Shown one piece after another: positions 20,495 through 28,699 of a stretch of 64,000 bases of DNA; position 1 is the stretch's first letter; the number at the start of each line of letters is the position of its first letter. The stretch comes from Niabella drilacis (GTDB taxonomy: Bacteria; Bacteroidota; Bacteroidia; Chitinophagales; Chitinophagaceae). The notes beneath the pieces were generated by a model that worked only from the letters and a program-made list of their open reading frames with translations, was not told the origin of the DNA and did not search any database. A program made the position numbers and the translations under genes. Where the stretch lies: contig NZ_FMZO01000002.1 of assembly GCF_900101395.1 (NCBI RefSeq), forward strand, positions 385,840 through 449,839, written 5' to 3'.

Positions 20495-20830
20495 CCTGCA
20501 GTGCCCAACCGGGGGTTAGGCTATGCGGCAGGGGCTACAGGTACTCCCGGCAGCAATCAGCATATACAGGCAGCTAAATAATTTTTATGATCCCGGCTGT
20601 AGTGCCAGTAGCAGCGGTATCCCGCTAAAAGCGGGATCGCACTCTTGTGCTGCGGTGCAGGTGGCATCCGTTGAGTATCAGAAAATACCATCAATTTTTT
20701 ACCAATTATAAAAAATAAGTATATTAGCAATGCAGCCAATTGATCTCTCTTTGAGATTGCTATTGAAATTAGTATTTATTAAAAATGAACAAATTTTTGG
20801 TAATCTTAACCATATGGCCTTAAATTTGTT
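20495..20830 (+). repeat. Family B repeat and promoter before the TAC operon
   Basis: Bases 20584-20662 are repeat family B. They include the inserted small hairpin ATCCCGCTAAAAGCGGGAT and the conserved CACTCTTGTGCTGCGGTGCA. A promoter box TATATTAG with CAA following lies at 20720-20727, about 120 bases before the first gene of the operon. No protein gene is seen. Confidence 0.6.
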
Positions 20831-20848
20831 CTTAACTTATAAGTTAAG
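20787..20848 (+). promoter_or_regulatory. Candidate operator of the TAC operon: nested inverted repeats
   Basis: Two dyads abut the first gene. GAACAAATTT at 20787-20796 pairs with AAATTTGTTC at 20822-20831. A perfect 18-base palindrome, CTTAACTTATAAGTTAAG, spans 20831-20848 and ends directly at the TTG start codon. XRE-type antitoxins usually repress their own operon by binding such palindromes. That the downstream HTH protein binds here is an inference. Confidence 0.65.
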
Positions 20849-21340
20849 TTGATCGTTTATTTTGAACTAATTGAAGACTTATGTAGTAAACGCGTTGACG
20901 TCTATACTGTTAGGATAGATGATGAAGCGGCTTTTGAGTATGAAAAATATTATGAGAAGGAATTTGTACAGCATGATGAAGAGCGGGACTTTATCGATAG
21001 TGCGCTCGAAGAGATTAGAAAAAGGGGGGCTTTAAGAAGATATTTTCGCAACGAAGGGCCGGCAGATGCGTTACCAAATGGTGTTCCTGATGAAATTGTA
21101 AAGTTGAATGAGAATGATCAGGGAATCAGGCTTTATTGTATCCGTCTTTCAGATAATGTATTGATCCTGTTAAATGGAGATATAAAAACTATACAGGACC
21201 CAAAAGATTGTCCAAACGTTAGAAAGCATTTTTTGTTTGCCCAACGACTTGCCTGCTTTTTAACGACATATATTTTTGAGGAGGGAATAGATCTGGTAAA
21301 TGACAGGTACTGTTTTCATAAAAAGGAGGTTGAGTTATGA
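20849..21340 (+). CDS. Putative HigB/RelE-like toxin of a TAC module
   Basis: The product has 163 residues. The only start I can find is TTG at 20849: the frame is closed by TAA a few codons upstream and no ATG comes soon after. Residues 25-70 are charged helices. Then LRRYFRNEGPADALPNG and IRLYCIRLSDNVLILLNGDI follow the strand pattern of RelE/HigB-type RNases ('G.R.Y......IVLLHG..K'). The match is by pattern and position, not strong sequence identity. Its stop overlaps the ATG of the next gene by four bases, showing tight coupling to an HTH antitoxin and a SecB-like protein, the order known for toxin-antitoxin-chaperone systems such as HigB1-HigA1-Rv1957 of Mycobacterium tuberculosis. Confidence 0.65.
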   Translation: MIVYFELIEDLCSKRVDVYTVRIDDEAAFEYEKYYEKEFVQHDEERDFIDSALEEIRKRGALRRYFRNEGPADALPNGVPDEIVKLNENDQGIRLYCIRLSDNVLILLNGDIKTIQDPKDCPNVRKHFLFAQRLACFLTTYIFEEGIDLVNDRYCFHKKEVEL

Positions 21341-21762
21341 AATTAAAAAATTATAAACAGAGAATAGAAAGCATCCCGGAATTTACAAAACGGGAGGCTA
21401 AGCATAGCTTAGATATCCTGGATCGCATTCATGAACTGCTTCAGGAAAAATTTGGAGGTAGGCAAAAACTGCTTGCTGAAAAAATGGGAAAGAAAGAGGC
21501 GGAGATTTCCAGGTGGATCAATGGTAATCATAATTTTACTATGAAAACCATTTCCAAACTTGAGGCAGCATTTGGTGCACCAATCATTGCTGTTTGCACC
21601 AGTGATGTTGATGCTGATTTTGAACAGGTAAAATCTCCATTCAATACATTTCATAAAACCGTTTTTGTTTCTGAAGCCGGGTTAAGAGAAGAAAGGCAAT
21701 TAAGTTTTACAGAAGTAAAAATGACGCTTGCCGATGAAGAGATAGATGAAATGAGTATCTGA
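21337..21762 (+). CDS. XRE-family antitoxin (HigA-like) of a TAC module
   Basis: The product has 141 residues. A helix-turn-helix domain spans about residues 22-85: GGRQKLLAEKMGKKEAEISR, then WINGNHNFTMKTISKLEAAF, a clear XRE fold. The C-terminal tail of about 50 residues (FNTFHKTVFVSEAGLREERQ) is flexible. In studied TAC systems such a tail is the chaperone-addiction region that the SecB-like protein binds; applying this here is an inference. It overlaps the toxin gene by 4 bases and the SecB-like gene by 1 base (TGATG). The protein is the likely binder of the 18-base palindrome upstream. Confidence 0.85.
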   Translation: MKLKNYKQRIESIPEFTKREAKHSLDILDRIHELLQEKFGGRQKLLAEKMGKKEAEISRWINGNHNFTMKTISKLEAAFGAPIIAVCTSDVDADFEQVKSPFNTFHKTVFVSEAGLREERQLSFTEVKMTLADEEIDEMSI

Positions 21763-22217
21763 TGAGCACAGAAAAGAATTTTAATATTGAACTGTTAAGC
21801 GTTGAAGATATACGCATACAAAATGCGTCTATCAATAGCCCGCAGCATTCGACTGCCCCAGGTGATAGTGAGTTTGATATCAATATATCCCTAAAGCCGG
21901 GCATTAATATTGATCAAAAAAAAATGTTGCTTGTATTTGTTTGTGAAGCGTTGTCCAAATCCAGGGATGCGCAAAGCTCAATGGAGGCATCCTGTAAATT
22001 TGAAATTGCATATATCTTTCATGTTAAAAATCTTAAGGACTTAATCACAGAGCAGGAGGATCATGTTCAGGTGGATGATGAGCTGGCTACAAGCGTAGTA
22101 AATATTGCTTATTCCACTTCAAGGGGAATCATTTTTACCCGTTGCCAGGGCACTGTTTTTAACAGGCTAATCCTCCCCGTTACTTCTACAAAAGAACTAA
22201 CAAAAATGCTAAAGTAA
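21762..22217 (+). CDS. SecB-like chaperone of a TAC module
   Basis: The product has 151 residues. The first half contains FDINISLKPGINIDQKKMLL, a SecB-like beta-sheet region. The end (ATSVVNIAYSTSRGIIFTRC, then QGTVFNRLILPVTST) matches the SecB C-terminal helix-turn pattern 'Y..SR......GT.F....LPV.....L'. General SecB is not part of the basic gene set in Bacteroidota, so a solitary copy next to an HTH antitoxin is best explained as a TAC chaperone that stabilises the antitoxin. The ATG overlaps the antitoxin stop codon. Confidence 0.78.
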   Translation: MSTEKNFNIELLSVEDIRIQNASINSPQHSTAPGDSEFDINISLKPGINIDQKKMLLVFVCEALSKSRDAQSSMEASCKFEIAYIFHVKNLKDLITEQEDHVQVDDELATSVVNIAYSTSRGIIFTRCQGTVFNRLILPVTSTKELTKMLK

Positions 22218-22633
22218 ATACATGGGCCGGTAGTACGGCTTTTTTTTACTGTATCCGTTGTAGTCCCAGCGATCGGGATGGCAGCGGTATCCCGCTAAAA
22301 GCGGGATCGCACTCTTGTGCTGCAGTGCAGATGGCGGCAGTTAAGCACCAGCACCCCAATACCGGAACAACCCACATCAAAGGCCATCGGCCTGGCCACG
22401 TCTTTACAACTCCGGAATTTATTCCGGAAGCCAAAACCGGCTACGGAGCGGGGGAGCGCCCTCGGCGCGGTCCATAGCATCGCCCGCACGTCCCCCCCGG
22501 TCTCCCTGTCCCATCAATGCATGCATATACACCACCACCCGCCGCATTTGCAAAGCAATACCTCCTCCCTTACGGAAATCCGTAAAATGCCAGCTGCCGC
22601 ATTTCATAGTTTCGTGCGATAAAAAAAATACTT
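22218..22633. repeat. Family B and A repeats, with dyad
   Basis: Bases 22250-22330 are repeat B with the hairpin ATCCCGCTAAAAGCGGGAT. Bases about 22370-22560 are repeat A (CCGGAATTTATTCCGGAAGC, CTACGGAGCGGG). The dyad TTACGG-AAAT-CCGTAA lies at 22570-22585. No gene is supported; several open frames here are translations of the repeats. Confidence 0.6.
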
Positions 22634-23482: not shown

Positions 23483-24180
23483 CGGAACTTTTTTTTGAGT
23501 GTGTTTTGCAGACTTTAAATGGCTGCATTTTTTATGTGAGTGCCATACGGCCATCAGCATTACCCATCAGCGACCCCCTTACGGTTTTCCGTAAAAATGC
23601 TTTTCTCTTGGTGTATATATATGGTCCCGGCTGCAGTGCGTATGGCAACGGTCTTGCGTCGCACTCTTGTGCTGTAGTACAGGTAGCATCGATATCCCGC
23701 TGAAAGCGGGATCACTCACTTGTGCTGCGGTGTCCCGATAGCGATCGGGAGCATCAGTTTAGCGCCCCGTGTCCCGCGTCCTCCAAACGTAAATGCGTGC
23801 CCCATTTCCCCCCGGTCCTAATGTCCCCCAATGCAAGTACACGCCGGCCCACCACGCCCGATTCCTCCAAATCTTAGCAATTAATTCCCTTACGGTTTTC
23901 CGTAAAAACGCGCGGTTGTTGAAGAATATATTTGTACAAACCGCCGGGGATGGCTTTTGTCAAATAAAAAAAATATGTATATTAGCAAACAACTATTTGG
24001 AAAAGTAAAACTGCTAAAGAACAACTACCACGACGGTTGCGGAAATAATAATTTTTTAACCAGTAAAAGCTATTAAATAGCCGTGTTTAGGCGTTTACAA
24101 GCGATTATAAACGTTTATAAATTGCGGTAAACGATGAGTTGGTAGCTACGTGTCAATCTTTATTCTAATTTGTATTTAAT
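23483..24180 (+). repeat. Repeat-promoter-leader module upstream of the defence genes
   Basis: No gene is present in about 700 bases. A dyad TTACGG-TTTT-CCGTAA lies at 23579-23594, followed by repeat B at about 23618-23740 (which contains a TCCCGATAGCGATCGGGA hairpin at 23733-23750). A degenerate repeat A follows, then a second TTACGG dyad at 23890-23905. Exactly 73 bases after that dyad comes a promoter box TATATTAG (23978-23985) with TTTTG at 23955-23959. The leader shares TTTGGAAAAGTAAAACTGCT-like, CGACGGTTGCGGAA and ACAAGCGATTATAAACG pieces with the modules at 8550 and 18550. Confidence 0.65.
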
Positions 24181-25335
24181 ATGGCAAAGAGAACTAAATC
24201 CGCTGTAAAAAAAGCCGCGAGCAAAACAGCAACAAAGGCTATTGAATCTGCAAAGGTAAAAAAGCAAATTTCTAATACAGACTTGCCAAGAAAGACCCTA
24301 GAGGAATGTCTTGATGTAGCAAGACCGATTCATGAAACCTATGCTGACTCAAATGTTTCTTGGGACGAAATAGCTGCTGCATTAAGTCGTGGGTCACAAA
24401 CTGCGGCGTTTAAATATTTAGTTTGGGGGGCACAGGCTTATGGATTAATACTTCGAGATGGTGAAGCATACCAGCTTACGGAAACTTCAAGAAAAATATT
24501 TGCCCCAGAATCAGAAGCCGAAAGGAGAGAGAGCCTAATTAAAGCAAGTACAATACCCACAATTCTGAGCCGATTTTATACAGATTATAATGGAAAATTT
24601 CTTCCCGAGGGTGAGTTTTTTGACAATATTCTGAACTCTCGGTATTCTATTCCGAAGGACAGAATTAACGAAGCAAAGGATATCATTCTTAGTAACGCAA
24701 GGTACTGTGGTTTGCTAATCGAACATGACTCTGGAAAGATGACTATTCGACTTGAGGGAGCTCCAATAAGGAACGAATCTCAACCCGAAATATCAATTCA
24801 ATCTGAGATTGATAATGGCAGTTCAGAGATTGACTCTGAAAACATTTGCTTTTATATTACTCCAATTGGGGATGAGGGTACAGAAGTCAGAAGACATGCC
24901 GATATGTTGCTGAAACATTTAATAGAACCTGCCTTTGCAAAATTTAATTATAAAGTTATTAGAGCTGACAAAATAGAAAAATCAGGTCTTATTAGTCAGC
25001 AAATATTTGAATATTTGGTTTCTTGTAAAATATGTGTTGCAGACCTTTCTTATGGTAATCCCAACGCATTTTATGAATTAGGGATTCGGCATATGATAAA
25101 GAAGCCTTCAATTCAAATCATCAGAAAAGGTGATAAAATTCCTTTCGATGTTTCGCAGGGGCGAACAATAACCGTTGATATATCTGACACGTACACCGTA
25201 ATGGACAAGATTGAGTCTGCGAAAAATGAACTGATGGAGCATATTAAGGCAATATTGGATCCATCATCGAGTGGCCAATCTGACGACAATCCTGTAGCGG
25301 TTTATCTTCCAAAACTCACAATTAGGATGATATAA
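24181..25335 (+). CDS. Winged-helix plus deoxyribosyltransferase/TIR-like domain protein
   Basis: The product has 384 residues. Residues 1-35 are Lys/Ala rich. Residues 35-200 form a DUF5343-like winged-helix region (SRGSQTAAFKYLVWGAQAYG, then LILRDGEAYQLTETSRKIF). Residues 220-345 form a Rossmann-like domain with FYITPIGDEGTEVRRHADML, YKVIRADKIEKSGLISQQIF, VADLSYGNPNAFYELGIRH and IPFDVSQGRTI. The 'ADLS..NPN.FYELG' motif with its Glu is shared by nucleoside deoxyribosyltransferase and TIR-like NAD-cleaving families, and points to a nucleotide or NAD substrate. It lies 99 bases before a CD-NTase gene on the same strand, so it may belong to the CBASS operon. Activity and membership are inferences. 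Confidence 0.75.
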   Translation: MAKRTKSAVKKAASKTATKAIESAKVKKQISNTDLPRKTLEECLDVARPIHETYADSNVSWDEIAAALSRGSQTAAFKYLVWGAQAYGLILRDGEAYQLTETSRKIFAPESEAERRESLIKASTIPTILSRFYTDYNGKFLPEGEFFDNILNSRYSIPKDRINEAKDIILSNARYCGLLIEHDSGKMTIRLEGAPIRNESQPEISIQSEIDNGSSEIDSENICFYITPIGDEGTEVRRHADMLLKHLIEPAFAKFNYKVIRADKIEKSGLISQQIFEYLVSCKICVADLSYGNPNAFYELGIRHMIKKPSIQIIRKGDKIPFDVSQGRTITVDISDTYTVMDKIESAKNELMEHIKAILDPSSSGQSDDNPVAVYLPKLTIRMI

Positions 25336-25434
25336 TGTACAACTGTCAACAATAACATCGCCTATAAAGGAGCTTGAGATCGAAATATTTGCTACCGATA
25401 ATACTCTGCCATTAACCGTAAGTTTAAACCAACT

Positions 25435-26496
25435 ATGCCAAAGAATTATAGACAACTAACTGAATCTGTTCGTAACAGAATAAATCCAGAACATCGCGCC
25501 TTGACAAAGGCATTCTCCGATGAGCTATCAACTATATCATACAGCGATGTCCTAGTATTTATTAGAACTGCTATGAAAGGTGTTGAACCTGAATACACAC
25601 AAAAAAGCAAAGATGCGGGAGAAAGAGTTAAAGAGCATCTATCGAAAGAGCTTTCGCAGGTTAGCTTTAAATATCAAGGCTCAGTAATGACCAATACGCA
25701 CATTAAAGCATATAGTGACATAGACTTACTTACAATTTCAGAAAAATTTTACCAAGCTGATAATTATGAAATAAGACAAATACTTGAAAATTCTGACCGA
25801 AGAGCAAAATACTATTCATTATCGATAAACAAAATGGAGAAAGAATTAAACGCTTCTTCCTATCAAGGTAATTCTCTCGACGATTTACGATATAATAGAA
25901 CTAAAAGCGAAGAAGTATTGTCTGAGGTTTATAGTATTTGTGATACATCAAAGCCTAAATCAATAAAAATAGAAAATCTAAGCCTGAAAAGAGAAGTTGA
26001 TATTGTTATTGCGAACTGGTATGATGATGTGAAATCAGTTATTAATGATAAAGGAGAATATAGAGGTATTCAAATTTATAATAAAGAAAAACACCAAAGA
26101 GAAAACGCCGACTTTCCTTTCCTAAGTATTATGAGAATTAATGAAAGAGGAAACGAAACAACTGGCAGAGTTAAAAAAATGATTCGGTTTATCAAAAATA
26201 TAAAAGCATTATCAGACCACGAAATAAAACTGTCGAGTTTTGACATTAATGCAGTTTGTTATGATATAGGAATAGAAAAATACAAAAGCCTTTCTTTCTA
26301 CCAATTAGTTCCGGTTATATACAATCAACTAAAAAGTATATGCGAAAATAAAACTCATTCAGACAATATTGTTTCAGTTGATGGGCGTGAATACATATTT
26401 CGTTATAATTCAGAAAAGCTTAAGAATTTGAAATTAGTTTTGAATGAACTTCAATCAATTTATTTAGACTTGTATACAAACATTCTATCCAAATGA
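25435..26496 (+). CDS. CBASS cyclic nucleotide synthase (CD-NTase)
   Basis: The product has 353 residues. The nucleotidyltransferase signature is GSVMTNTHIKAYSDIDLL, with Gly82-Ser83 and metal-binding Asp95 and Asp97. The third catalytic acid is Asp189 in REVDIVIANW. Spacing fits the CD-NTase (cGAS/DncV-like) family rather than other Pol-beta enzymes. In CBASS the enzyme makes a cyclic nucleotide signal after phage infection. Its last codons overlap the next gene (ATGA, 4 bases), which encodes a TIR-STING effector. Known STING-linked CD-NTases of Bacteroidota belong to clade E and make 3',3'-cyclic di-GMP; that product is expected but not shown here. I leave the symbol empty because the clade was not tested. 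Confidence 0.88.
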   Translation: MPKNYRQLTESVRNRINPEHRALTKAFSDELSTISYSDVLVFIRTAMKGVEPEYTQKSKDAGERVKEHLSKELSQVSFKYQGSVMTNTHIKAYSDIDLLTISEKFYQADNYEIRQILENSDRRAKYYSLSINKMEKELNASSYQGNSLDDLRYNRTKSEEVLSEVYSICDTSKPKSIKIENLSLKREVDIVIANWYDDVKSVINDKGEYRGIQIYNKEKHQRENADFPFLSIMRINERGNETTGRVKKMIRFIKNIKALSDHEIKLSSFDINAVCYDIGIEKYKSLSFYQLVPVIYNQLKSICENKTHSDNIVSVDGREYIFRYNSEKLKNLKLVLNELQSIYLDLYTNILSK

Positions 26497-27431
26497 TAAA
26501 AAAAAGATTATTTATCGGTTCTTCCTCGGAAGAATTAAAAACTGCTGAAATTGTTAAAGAAGTACTATTGAAAGACTTTGAAGTAACAATTTGGAATGAC
26601 AATGTATGGGATACCGCCGTATTTAAAATTAATCAGAATTTTTTAGCAGATCTGCTGAAAGCGTCTTTACAATTCGACTTCGGGATTCTAATTGGGACAA
26701 AAGATGACAAAGTAATGTTCAGAGAGGTTGAAATGATTCAGCCGCGAGATAATGTTTTATTTGAATTGGGTTTATTCACAGGAAGATTAGGCACTTCAAA
26801 ATGTGCATTCCTAATAGACAAGGAAATAAAACTTCCATCAGACTTTAATGGTTTGACACTTGCGAGATTTGATTCGACAAATGAAGCTACAGTTATCGCA
26901 GGTGCTAATTCAATAAAGGATTTATTTTTAGCAAGTGCCGATGACGAAATAAACTTTTTTCCGTCAGCGACTTTAGCCTCTGTTTATTACGAAAATTTAA
27001 TTGTTCCTATTTGCCGTTTTATTATTGATAACAATGGATTTACAAAAGGCGATACACATTATCAAAAATGCAAACTGAATATAATAGTGCCGGAAAGGAT
27101 TAATCAAGATGTGAATTTACAATTTGAAAAATTAAAAGGACTATTTACAACAGAAAATGTATCATTTAAGTACTCAGGACGTCCAAGACAAATTAGTGTG
27201 GACACTCAAATAAAGAATGACACACTTGAATTTATTGACTTTCCAACCATTATTACAGGAATAAATCACGCAATTTCAAACCTACTGCCAAACGATTTCA
27301 ATAAACAAAGTCCTGATTATAGTTCAATCCTTGACCGAGAATTGCGTCGTTTTATAACAACTTTGAAAAAACTTTTAATTAGAGGCGGCTTTGATGAAAT
27401 GGTAAATGTAAAAAGAGATTCCGAATTATAA
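26493..27431 (+). CDS. TIR-STING effector of CBASS (CAP12-like)
   Basis: The product has 312 residues. The N-terminal TIR-type domain (residues 1-150) opens KRLFIGSSSEELKTAEIV and carries NVLFELGLFTGRLG, with Glu91 as the expected catalytic residue for NAD+ cleavage. The C-terminal part (about residues 165-305) follows bacterial STING: ASVYYENLIVPICRFIID, KLNIIVPERINQDVNLQF and LRRFITTLKKLLIRGGFD. Published bacterial TIR-STING proteins bind cyclic di-GMP, form filaments and destroy NAD+ to stop growth during infection. Length and arrangement match those proteins from Bacteroidota. It is translated as a unit with the preceding synthase gene; no further CBASS genes such as Cap2/Cap3 are present, which fits a minimal type I system. 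Confidence 0.88.
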   Translation: MIKKRLFIGSSSEELKTAEIVKEVLLKDFEVTIWNDNVWDTAVFKINQNFLADLLKASLQFDFGILIGTKDDKVMFREVEMIQPRDNVLFELGLFTGRLGTSKCAFLIDKEIKLPSDFNGLTLARFDSTNEATVIAGANSIKDLFLASADDEINFFPSATLASVYYENLIVPICRFIIDNNGFTKGDTHYQKCKLNIIVPERINQDVNLQFEKLKGLFTTENVSFKYSGRPRQISVDTQIKNDTLEFIDFPTIITGINHAISNLLPNDFNKQSPDYSSILDRELRRFITTLKKLLIRGGFDEMVNVKRDSEL

Positions 27432-27604: not shown

Positions 27605-28699
27605 ATGAAGCTATCATCCAAGAACATCTTATTTTTATTAGCGGTCTTTTTACTGATTACAAGTTCTCTTCTGTTTTTTATTGGACCCGAGTTCATTCAG
27701 GCAAGATATTATGATTTGCCTAGTCAAGAAGTGCGGAGTCAAATGGGAGATACGTTTGGAGGGACTATGGGGCCAGTCATAGCATGGATTGCAGCAATAT
27801 TAACGTTTGCTGCGTTTTATATCCAATATGAAGCCAATAAAGAACAAAGACGCCAGTTCGCTAAGCAAGCTGATGATACAGTAATTGAAAGATTTGAAAA
27901 TCGATTTTTTGAATTAGTTAGATTGCATAGGGAAAATGTTGAAGAACAAAATATTCAAGATATCATAATAGGACGTAAGGTTTTTACAACATATTATTTT
28001 GAGTTGAGGTATATCTATTTCGTTGTTGAAAGCACACACGATGCCAATATGCCTGTATCTCCATTAACTAAAGAAGAATTGACGAATCTTGCATATTTAA
28101 TATTTTTTTTTGGAATAGGTCATACTACCCAAGATGTTTTCGCTCATATTACACCAAGATATATAACTGAAGATTTTTTTACTAAAACGATAGAAAGACT
28201 TGAACGTGAGAAAAGCAATTATAGAAGAATCGCATCTGAAATTGAAATTGCTAGAACTAGACCTGGATTACCTATGCCTTCGCTCGAAGATCTAGTAGTT
28301 GAGTACAAAGGGAAAAGGGCAGTTTTTATGCAAGTCTACCAGCCGTTTACTGGTCATGGAACGAAAATAGGGCATTATTTCAGGCATTTATTTCAAACTG
28401 TTAGGTATGTCACAAATCAGGAAAATCCTTTATTTAGCAAAAGTGTTAAATATTCTTATATAAAAATTTTAAGAGCTCAGCTATCAAACTTTGAGCAAAT
28501 AATTCTTTATTATAATTCAGTATCATTATTAGGAGAGGCATGGATAGGAAGAGACTACATCAAAGAATATAAGTTACTTATTAATCTGCCATTGTCATTC
28601 GCAGATTTTGGAATTGAACCTGAAGAAAAGTTTAGAGCTGAAATTATAGGAGACAAAGATTTCTTTGACTGGAATACATTAAAGCATGCCCTATCATAA
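27605..28699 (+). CDS. Putative abortive infection protein (putAbiC type) with two membrane helices
   Basis: The product has 364 residues. It starts with a helix (ILFLLAVFLLITSSLLFFIG, about residues 9-28) and has a second (VIAWIAAILTFAAFYIQYEA, about residues 58-77). A charged soluble domain follows with the family signature GTKIGHYFRHLFQTVRYV near residue 255 and the C-terminal LRAQLSNFEQIILYYNSVS. I assign it to the putative phage abortive infection (putAbiC) family, whose founding member is the lactococcal AbiC protein. Homologues appear as single defence genes or as membrane partners in larger systems. It sits between an attC-like element and a decayed FRG gene, consistent with an independent cassette. 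The mechanism is unknown. Confidence 0.82.
   Translation: MKLSSKNILFLLAVFLLITSSLLFFIGPEFIQARYYDLPSQEVRSQMGDTFGGTMGPVIAWIAAILTFAAFYIQYEANKEQRRQFAKQADDTVIERFENRFFELVRLHRENVEEQNIQDIIIGRKVFTTYYFELRYIYFVVESTHDANMPVSPLTKEELTNLAYLIFFFGIGHTTQDVFAHITPRYITEDFFTKTIERLEREKSNYRRIASEIEIARTRPGLPMPSLEDLVVEYKGKRAVFMQVYQPFTGHGTKIGHYFRHLFQTVRYVTNQENPLFSKSVKYSYIKILRAQLSNFEQIILYYNSVSLLGEAWIGRDYIKEYKLLINLPLSFADFGIEPEEKFRAEIIGDKDFFDWNTLKHALS

Follow-up and report, generated by a model that had tools for sequence, protein, structure and literature searches.

A 64,000-nucleotide stretch of the Niabella drilacis genome (contig NZ_FMZO01000002.1, positions 385,840 to 449,839; hereafter the window) carries three overlapping genes, encoding a putative toxin (P1), an XRE antitoxin (P2), and a SecB-like protein (P3), that very probably constitute a tripartite toxin-antitoxin-chaperone (TAC) operon of the HigB-HigA-SecB type, working as proposed below through an RNase toxin, a repressor-antitoxin, a chaperone, and a phage trigger (Table 1). 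The open reading frames (ORFs) overlap by four bases (P1/P2) and one base (P2/P3), as the initial annotation of this DNA had noted, and the succession of toxin, antitoxin, and SecB-like chaperone in overlapping genes predicts a single operon. The same annotation had recognized the gene order as that of a TAC system, and since relatives of P1, P2, and P3 are found repeatedly in this order across the Bacteroidota, the arrangement is more than chance. The start that it gave, 20787, is not the start of a gene but the position at which an inverted repeat begins; the ATG at 20785-20787 was rejected as a gene start, with only 12 codons open from there.

Table 1. Features of the putative TAC operon, in window coordinates
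Feature	Position	Strand	Remarks
TTTG, possible -33 element	20796..20799	+	21 bases upstream of the -7 box
TAAATTTG, Bacteroidota-type -7 promoter box	20821..20828	+	TAnnTTTG
CTTAACTTATAAGTTAAG, perfect 18-base palindrome, candidate operator	20831..20848	.	abuts the P1 start codon
P1, toxin	20849..21340	+	163 aa, TTG start; RelE/HigB-type (BECR) fold
P2, XRE/HTH_3 antitoxin	21337..21762	+	141 aa; ATG at 21337, stop TGA 21760-21762
P2 C-terminal tail, candidate chaperone-addiction region	21598..21759	+	54 aa; tail/P3 correlation over loci
P3, SecB-fold chaperone	21762..22217	+	151 aa; ATG at 21762

All three proteins are matched by PDC-M64 models of PADLOC-DB 2.0.0, a library that supplies no cut-offs for these models (P1, 4.3e-29; P2, model PDC-M64C, 4.8e-26; P3, 3e-24). 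The proposal that P1 is RelE/HigB-like agrees with its predicted structure (predicted local distance difference test score, 94.8), which has the RelE/HigB (BECR) fold, with strands E2-7 and E17-23 at the N-terminus, and for which the best structural rows obtained with VIA-align are HigB and RelE. At the level of sequence, P1 matches no Pfam family at E ≤ 1 and does not reach the curated cut-off of Gp49 (PF05973), a family matched by 2 of 37 P1 relatives (best, 4.5e-4); a profile-profile comparison of P1 with Gp49 gives P 5e-6. The further idea of a new toxin branch stands in part, as P1 lacks a Pfam family and an NCBIfam search returned one sub-threshold model only, but PADLOC-DB already models the family. 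Identity of P1 to the other members of alignment A1 is 17–43%, and to locus L069 it reaches 66%. Neither P1 nor P3 found a meaningful match among solved structures when searched by sequence, as single proteins or as profiles.

In an alignment of 37 P1 sequences, R94 and K113 are the two invariant columns. PMC9098466 proposes that residues R68, R77, and K95 in the HigB of the TAC system are equivalent to RelE K54, R61, and R81 and pairs the same residues with R68, R73, and K92 of pneumococcal HigB; the last two residues lie 18–20 positions apart in these proteins, compared with 19 for R94 and K113. In the profile alignment, R94 falls on the arginine of the corresponding HigB strand and K113 on the lysine that follows the strand after it; no counterpart of HigB R68 is conserved among the 37 sequences. 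The lack of this counterpart and the low sequence similarity, along with ParE toxins that share the fold and appear among the lower structural rows, would be compatible with a RelE/ParE-fold protein of another activity (e.g., acting on gyrase or some other target) or with a weak or inactive toxin. Such an outcome seems improbable, as the top structural rows are HigB and RelE rather than ParE, the profile match is of the Gp49 type, and the arginine and lysine of P1 stand at catalytic spacing. A CmdT-like ADP-ribosyltransferase was also considered as the toxin and rejected, with no support for P1 from the PADLOC models.

The assignment of P2 as an XRE antitoxin is supported by a Pfam HTH_3 domain (1.6e-8, above the cut-off). 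P3 had been called SecB-like and, though it misses the SecB sequence profile, its predicted structure resembles SecB in structural comparison; it matches no Pfam family at E ≤ 1 and does not reach the curated cut-off of SecB (PF02556). PF02556 is matched by 1 of 37 relatives (5.6e-3), and the third genes of two related operons (L049 and L051) do pass its cut-off. General SecB is not universal in the phylum, as had been supposed: PF02556 occurs in 3 of the 99 Bacteroidota genomes searched, and in two of these three the matching gene stands third, behind a related P1-P2 pair (L049, L051). There is no PF02556 match in the genome of the window, a result that does not rule out another diverged SecB because the P3 genes of this genome escape the same search.

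From this absence it could be argued that P3 is a general export chaperone that has replaced SecB in this genome and is coupled to a toxin-antitoxin pair by chance. This is highly improbable: the PADLOC model of P3 has matches in only 14 of 149 genomes searched (the genome of the window included, with three), all three copies in this genome are preceded by P1- and P2-type genes (L002, the window; L015; L016), and the presence of P3 tends to follow the antitoxin tail (see below). The second and third TAC-like operons lie at G000:C33:28120-29468 (L015, L018) and G000:C16:56579-56968 (L016), the latter with a more diverged toxin (motif LRLYAIRL...TGSAIKLT). An ordinary two-component HigBA is also present in the genome (L052).

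The length of the P2 tail was compared with the presence of P3 in 47 P1-driven loci, a set that includes the locus of the window (L043) and four mutual close relatives (L020, L022, L025, L026) and leaves out the duplicates L053, L054, L056, and L073. The tail measures 34–90 aa in all 39 loci with P3 and 2–31 aa in seven of the eight loci without P3, the exception being L045, whose tail is 60 aa long and whose third ORF is divergent. Forty further loci were then fetched and scored with a tail threshold of 32 aa that the first set had provided; exclusion of L132 (contig end) and L149 (where the adjacency rule missed a P2 that sits in another frame) gave 38 loci (Fisher p 0.004), and dropping L116, a repeat of the Runella locus L059, gave 37 (p 0.013), in which long tails occur with a chaperone 27 times and without one four times, and short tails twice and four times, respectively. 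Among the four long-tailed loci without a chaperone, L154 has a divergent third gene like that of L045, and in L131, L137, and L141 no chaperone was found downstream in six frames with the P3 and bridge profiles. The C-terminal antitoxin extension is therefore missing from chaperone-less relatives with exceptions, and the coupling of chaperone and tail is a strong tendency rather than a law. The correlation, the family-wide gene order, and the predicted SecB fold of P3 make it extremely unlikely that the operon is an ordinary two-gene toxin-antitoxin pair followed by an unrelated third gene, a reading in keeping with the lack of a direct Pfam match for P3.

The third ORFs of L045 and L154 are 153 aa long, stand behind long-tailed antitoxins, and resemble P3 in their C-terminal part only; that of L045 weakly matches the P3 profile and does not match the SecB profile, and the two may represent another chaperone branch. 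In a tree of P1 with 43 rows, from which L063, L072, L030, and L039 (broken or short P1) were also dropped and in which L045 was scored as chaperone-bearing, the P3 label needs seven changes, at least five of them forced by well-supported branches. Tail and chaperone are both present in Flavihumibacter fluminis (L061), and in F. profundi (L062) the antitoxin stops soon after the HTH part and is followed, at most 12 bases past the antitoxin match, by an 11-residue match to chaperone residues 18–28 (90.9% identity, E 0.04), as if the tail had been lost in a single deletion together with the first part of the chaperone. The end of the L062 toxin differs as well, and for this reason the locus may be decaying. 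Within the tails, an aromatic pattern is enriched (22 of 40, compared with 11.1 in shuffles), an exploratory result for one of five patterns chosen after looking. Of 40 tails, 32 end in A, S, I, V, or G, and the chaperone-less antitoxins of L059 and L067 end in AA as well, such that ClpXP-like antitoxin ends appear to be a tendency only.

Upstream of the genes, the initial annotation had pointed to a TTG start beside a perfect 18-base palindrome, and the TTG at 20849 does lie directly behind CTTAACTTATAAGTTAAG. The TAAATTTG box is read as a Bacteroidota-type -7 element on the basis of the consensus TAnnTTTG, and the TTTG upstream of it may be a -33 element. CTTAACTTATAAGTTAAG is single in the window even with three mismatches allowed (0.02 expected), and a genome-wide search allowing two gives a single site. 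Among the 47 loci, 17 have it with no more than one mismatch (nine exact), directly abutting a TTG in 16 and sitting one base off in the other; TAnnTTTG stands 27–28 bases before the start in 14 of these 17. In 396 genomes of the order there are five exact sites, each abutting the TTG of a P1 gene, and no site for the reversed pattern. At other loci, P1 apparently starts with GTG at or inside a related ACTTATAAGTG-type site. Counts of first starts, which use the most upstream start and so overstate some P1 lengths, are 23 TTG, 13 GTG, and 11 ATG for P1, with ATG in 45 of 47 P2 and 34 of 39 P3. The length of the palindrome in the window was reached by 0.03 of single-base shuffles (60 per upstream region), which is suggestive and, alone, indecisive. 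Based on the position of the operator and the start-codon counts, the site is probably a means of repressing the operon that also imposes a weak start codon on P1. A 10-base inverted repeat (GAACAAATTT at 20787-20796 and AAATTTGTTC at 20822-20831) flanks the putative promoter and overlaps the operator by one base.

The genes downstream of the operon mark this region as a defence island. A cyclase (25435-26496) of a cyclic-oligonucleotide-based anti-phage signalling system (CBASS) is followed by a TIR-STING effector (26493-27431) and then immediately by an AbiC-like gene (27605-28699; putative abortive infection, Pfam putAbiC 5e-19). The CBASS locus spans 24181-27431, and its 384-aa protein at 24181-25335 also has a match (9e-11) to the model of a TIR effector. 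On both sides of the TAC operon (20596-20657 and 22266-22327) stands a 62-base repeat that includes a short hairpin (CCCGCTnAAAGCGGG) and resembles a repetitive extragenic palindrome; a third copy lies further downstream (23671-23732).

Relatives of P1, as judged by its PADLOC model, have a scattered distribution, both in the order (54 of 396 genomes) and in the phylum (31 of 296). None were found in IMG/VR by peptide patterns or in phages, nor was the combination of operator and TTG found in IMG/VR. One plasmid, Bacteroides thetaiotaomicron NZ_CP103284.1, carries the same three-gene set (L074, 59688-61030), annotated as hypothetical, HTH regulator, and hypothetical, in the neighbourhood of genes for a DUF4041 protein and for a phage antirepressor. 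One full-text search of a literature library returned no paper naming PDC-M64, and another none pairing 'toxin-antitoxin-chaperone' with 'Bacteroidota', the older name Bacteroidetes returning papers. A scattered presence would fit any mobile toxin-antitoxin module, and a true TAC operon could be maintained for a stabilizing or stress function, not as a phage defence; TAC systems were well characterized outside a phage context, according to the discussion in PMC11618068, and a phage trigger at this operon is something that we infer. This alternative is rather unlikely, considering the defence genes just downstream, the listing of the family as a candidate defence system by PADLOC, and the restriction of phages by the Escherichia coli TAC systems CmdTAC and MqsRAC, as given in PMC9519451. 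In the same paper, additional CmdC or MqsC is reported to weaken or abolish the protection.

What the analysis shows for the operon is its gene order, predicted folds, family and operator conservation, and the correlated tail and chaperone. RNase activity, repression, chaperone dependence, and a phage trigger are inferred, in the following way. P1, as a HigB-like toxin, would most likely cleave mRNA on the ribosome and be bound by P2, which would also repress the operon from the palindrome that would cover the transcription start, beside the toxin start codon. The C-terminal tail would render P2 prone to aggregation or proteolysis unless held by P3. Should P3 become occupied elsewhere, for which a freshly synthesized phage structural protein is the most plausible cause, P2 would be lost, P1 freed, and translation stopped, resulting in abortive infection. 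For HigBAC, the trigger is the major tail protein of phage lambda, as told by Gerdes (PMC11980606).

This provides a function hypothesis for a widespread candidate defence family for which we found none. The related toxins with and without a chaperone, and with antitoxin tails that mostly differ accordingly, amount to a natural experiment on chaperone addiction. Laboratory work by Bordes et al. (PMC5105189) demonstrated a transferable tail-plus-chaperone unit, and the natural pairs make this idea testable. Tentatively, and with somewhat less than even confidence, chaperone sensing may be detachable in this Bacteroidota toxin family, with tail and chaperone gained or lost together repeatedly, sometimes by one deletion (L061/L062), and the chaperone may be a pure decoy sensor of phage proteins that has no export task in hosts mostly devoid of general SecB.

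Compared with known systems, the operon has the testable sequence and structure features of a TAC system, with P1 and P3 outside the curated Gp49 and SecB cut-offs. PDC-M64 itself, a candidate defence system whose models cover all three genes, is assigned no function by the library and is read here as a TAC system. With the Mycobacterium tuberculosis TAC (HigB1-HigA1-SecBTA, Rv1955-1957) and HigBAC, it shares the toxin-antitoxin-chaperone order, a HigB-fold toxin, an antitoxin with a C-terminal extension, and a SecB-fold chaperone, and the entries 7nbu and 5mtw, the latter including the antitoxin peptide, rank with the best structural matches for the P1 and P3 models. Unlike these systems, P1 and P3 do not reach the Pfam thresholds, P1 has a greater length (163 aa; strands E2-7 and E17-23 at the N-terminus), the hosts are Bacteroidota, and the P1 family includes chaperone-less, short-tailed members. 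CmdTAC (PD-T4-9) has a similar three-gene logic under chaperone control, with its PD-T4-9_C model matched by 1 of 19 P3 relatives (0.0085), but CmdT is an ADP-ribosyltransferase (PMC11618068), whereas P1 has a RelE/HigB fold, and CmdA is described as having two N-terminal helices and an unstructured C terminus, whereas P2 has an HTH_3 domain. Two-component HigBA of the Gp49 family resembles P1-P2 in its toxin-first order, fold, and XRE antitoxin, but possesses neither a chaperone nor a long antitoxin tail. A HigBAC-like logic with a HigB-type toxin thus appears to be the best reading of the operon, and P1-P2-P3 is a diverged but recognizable relative of the known TAC systems.
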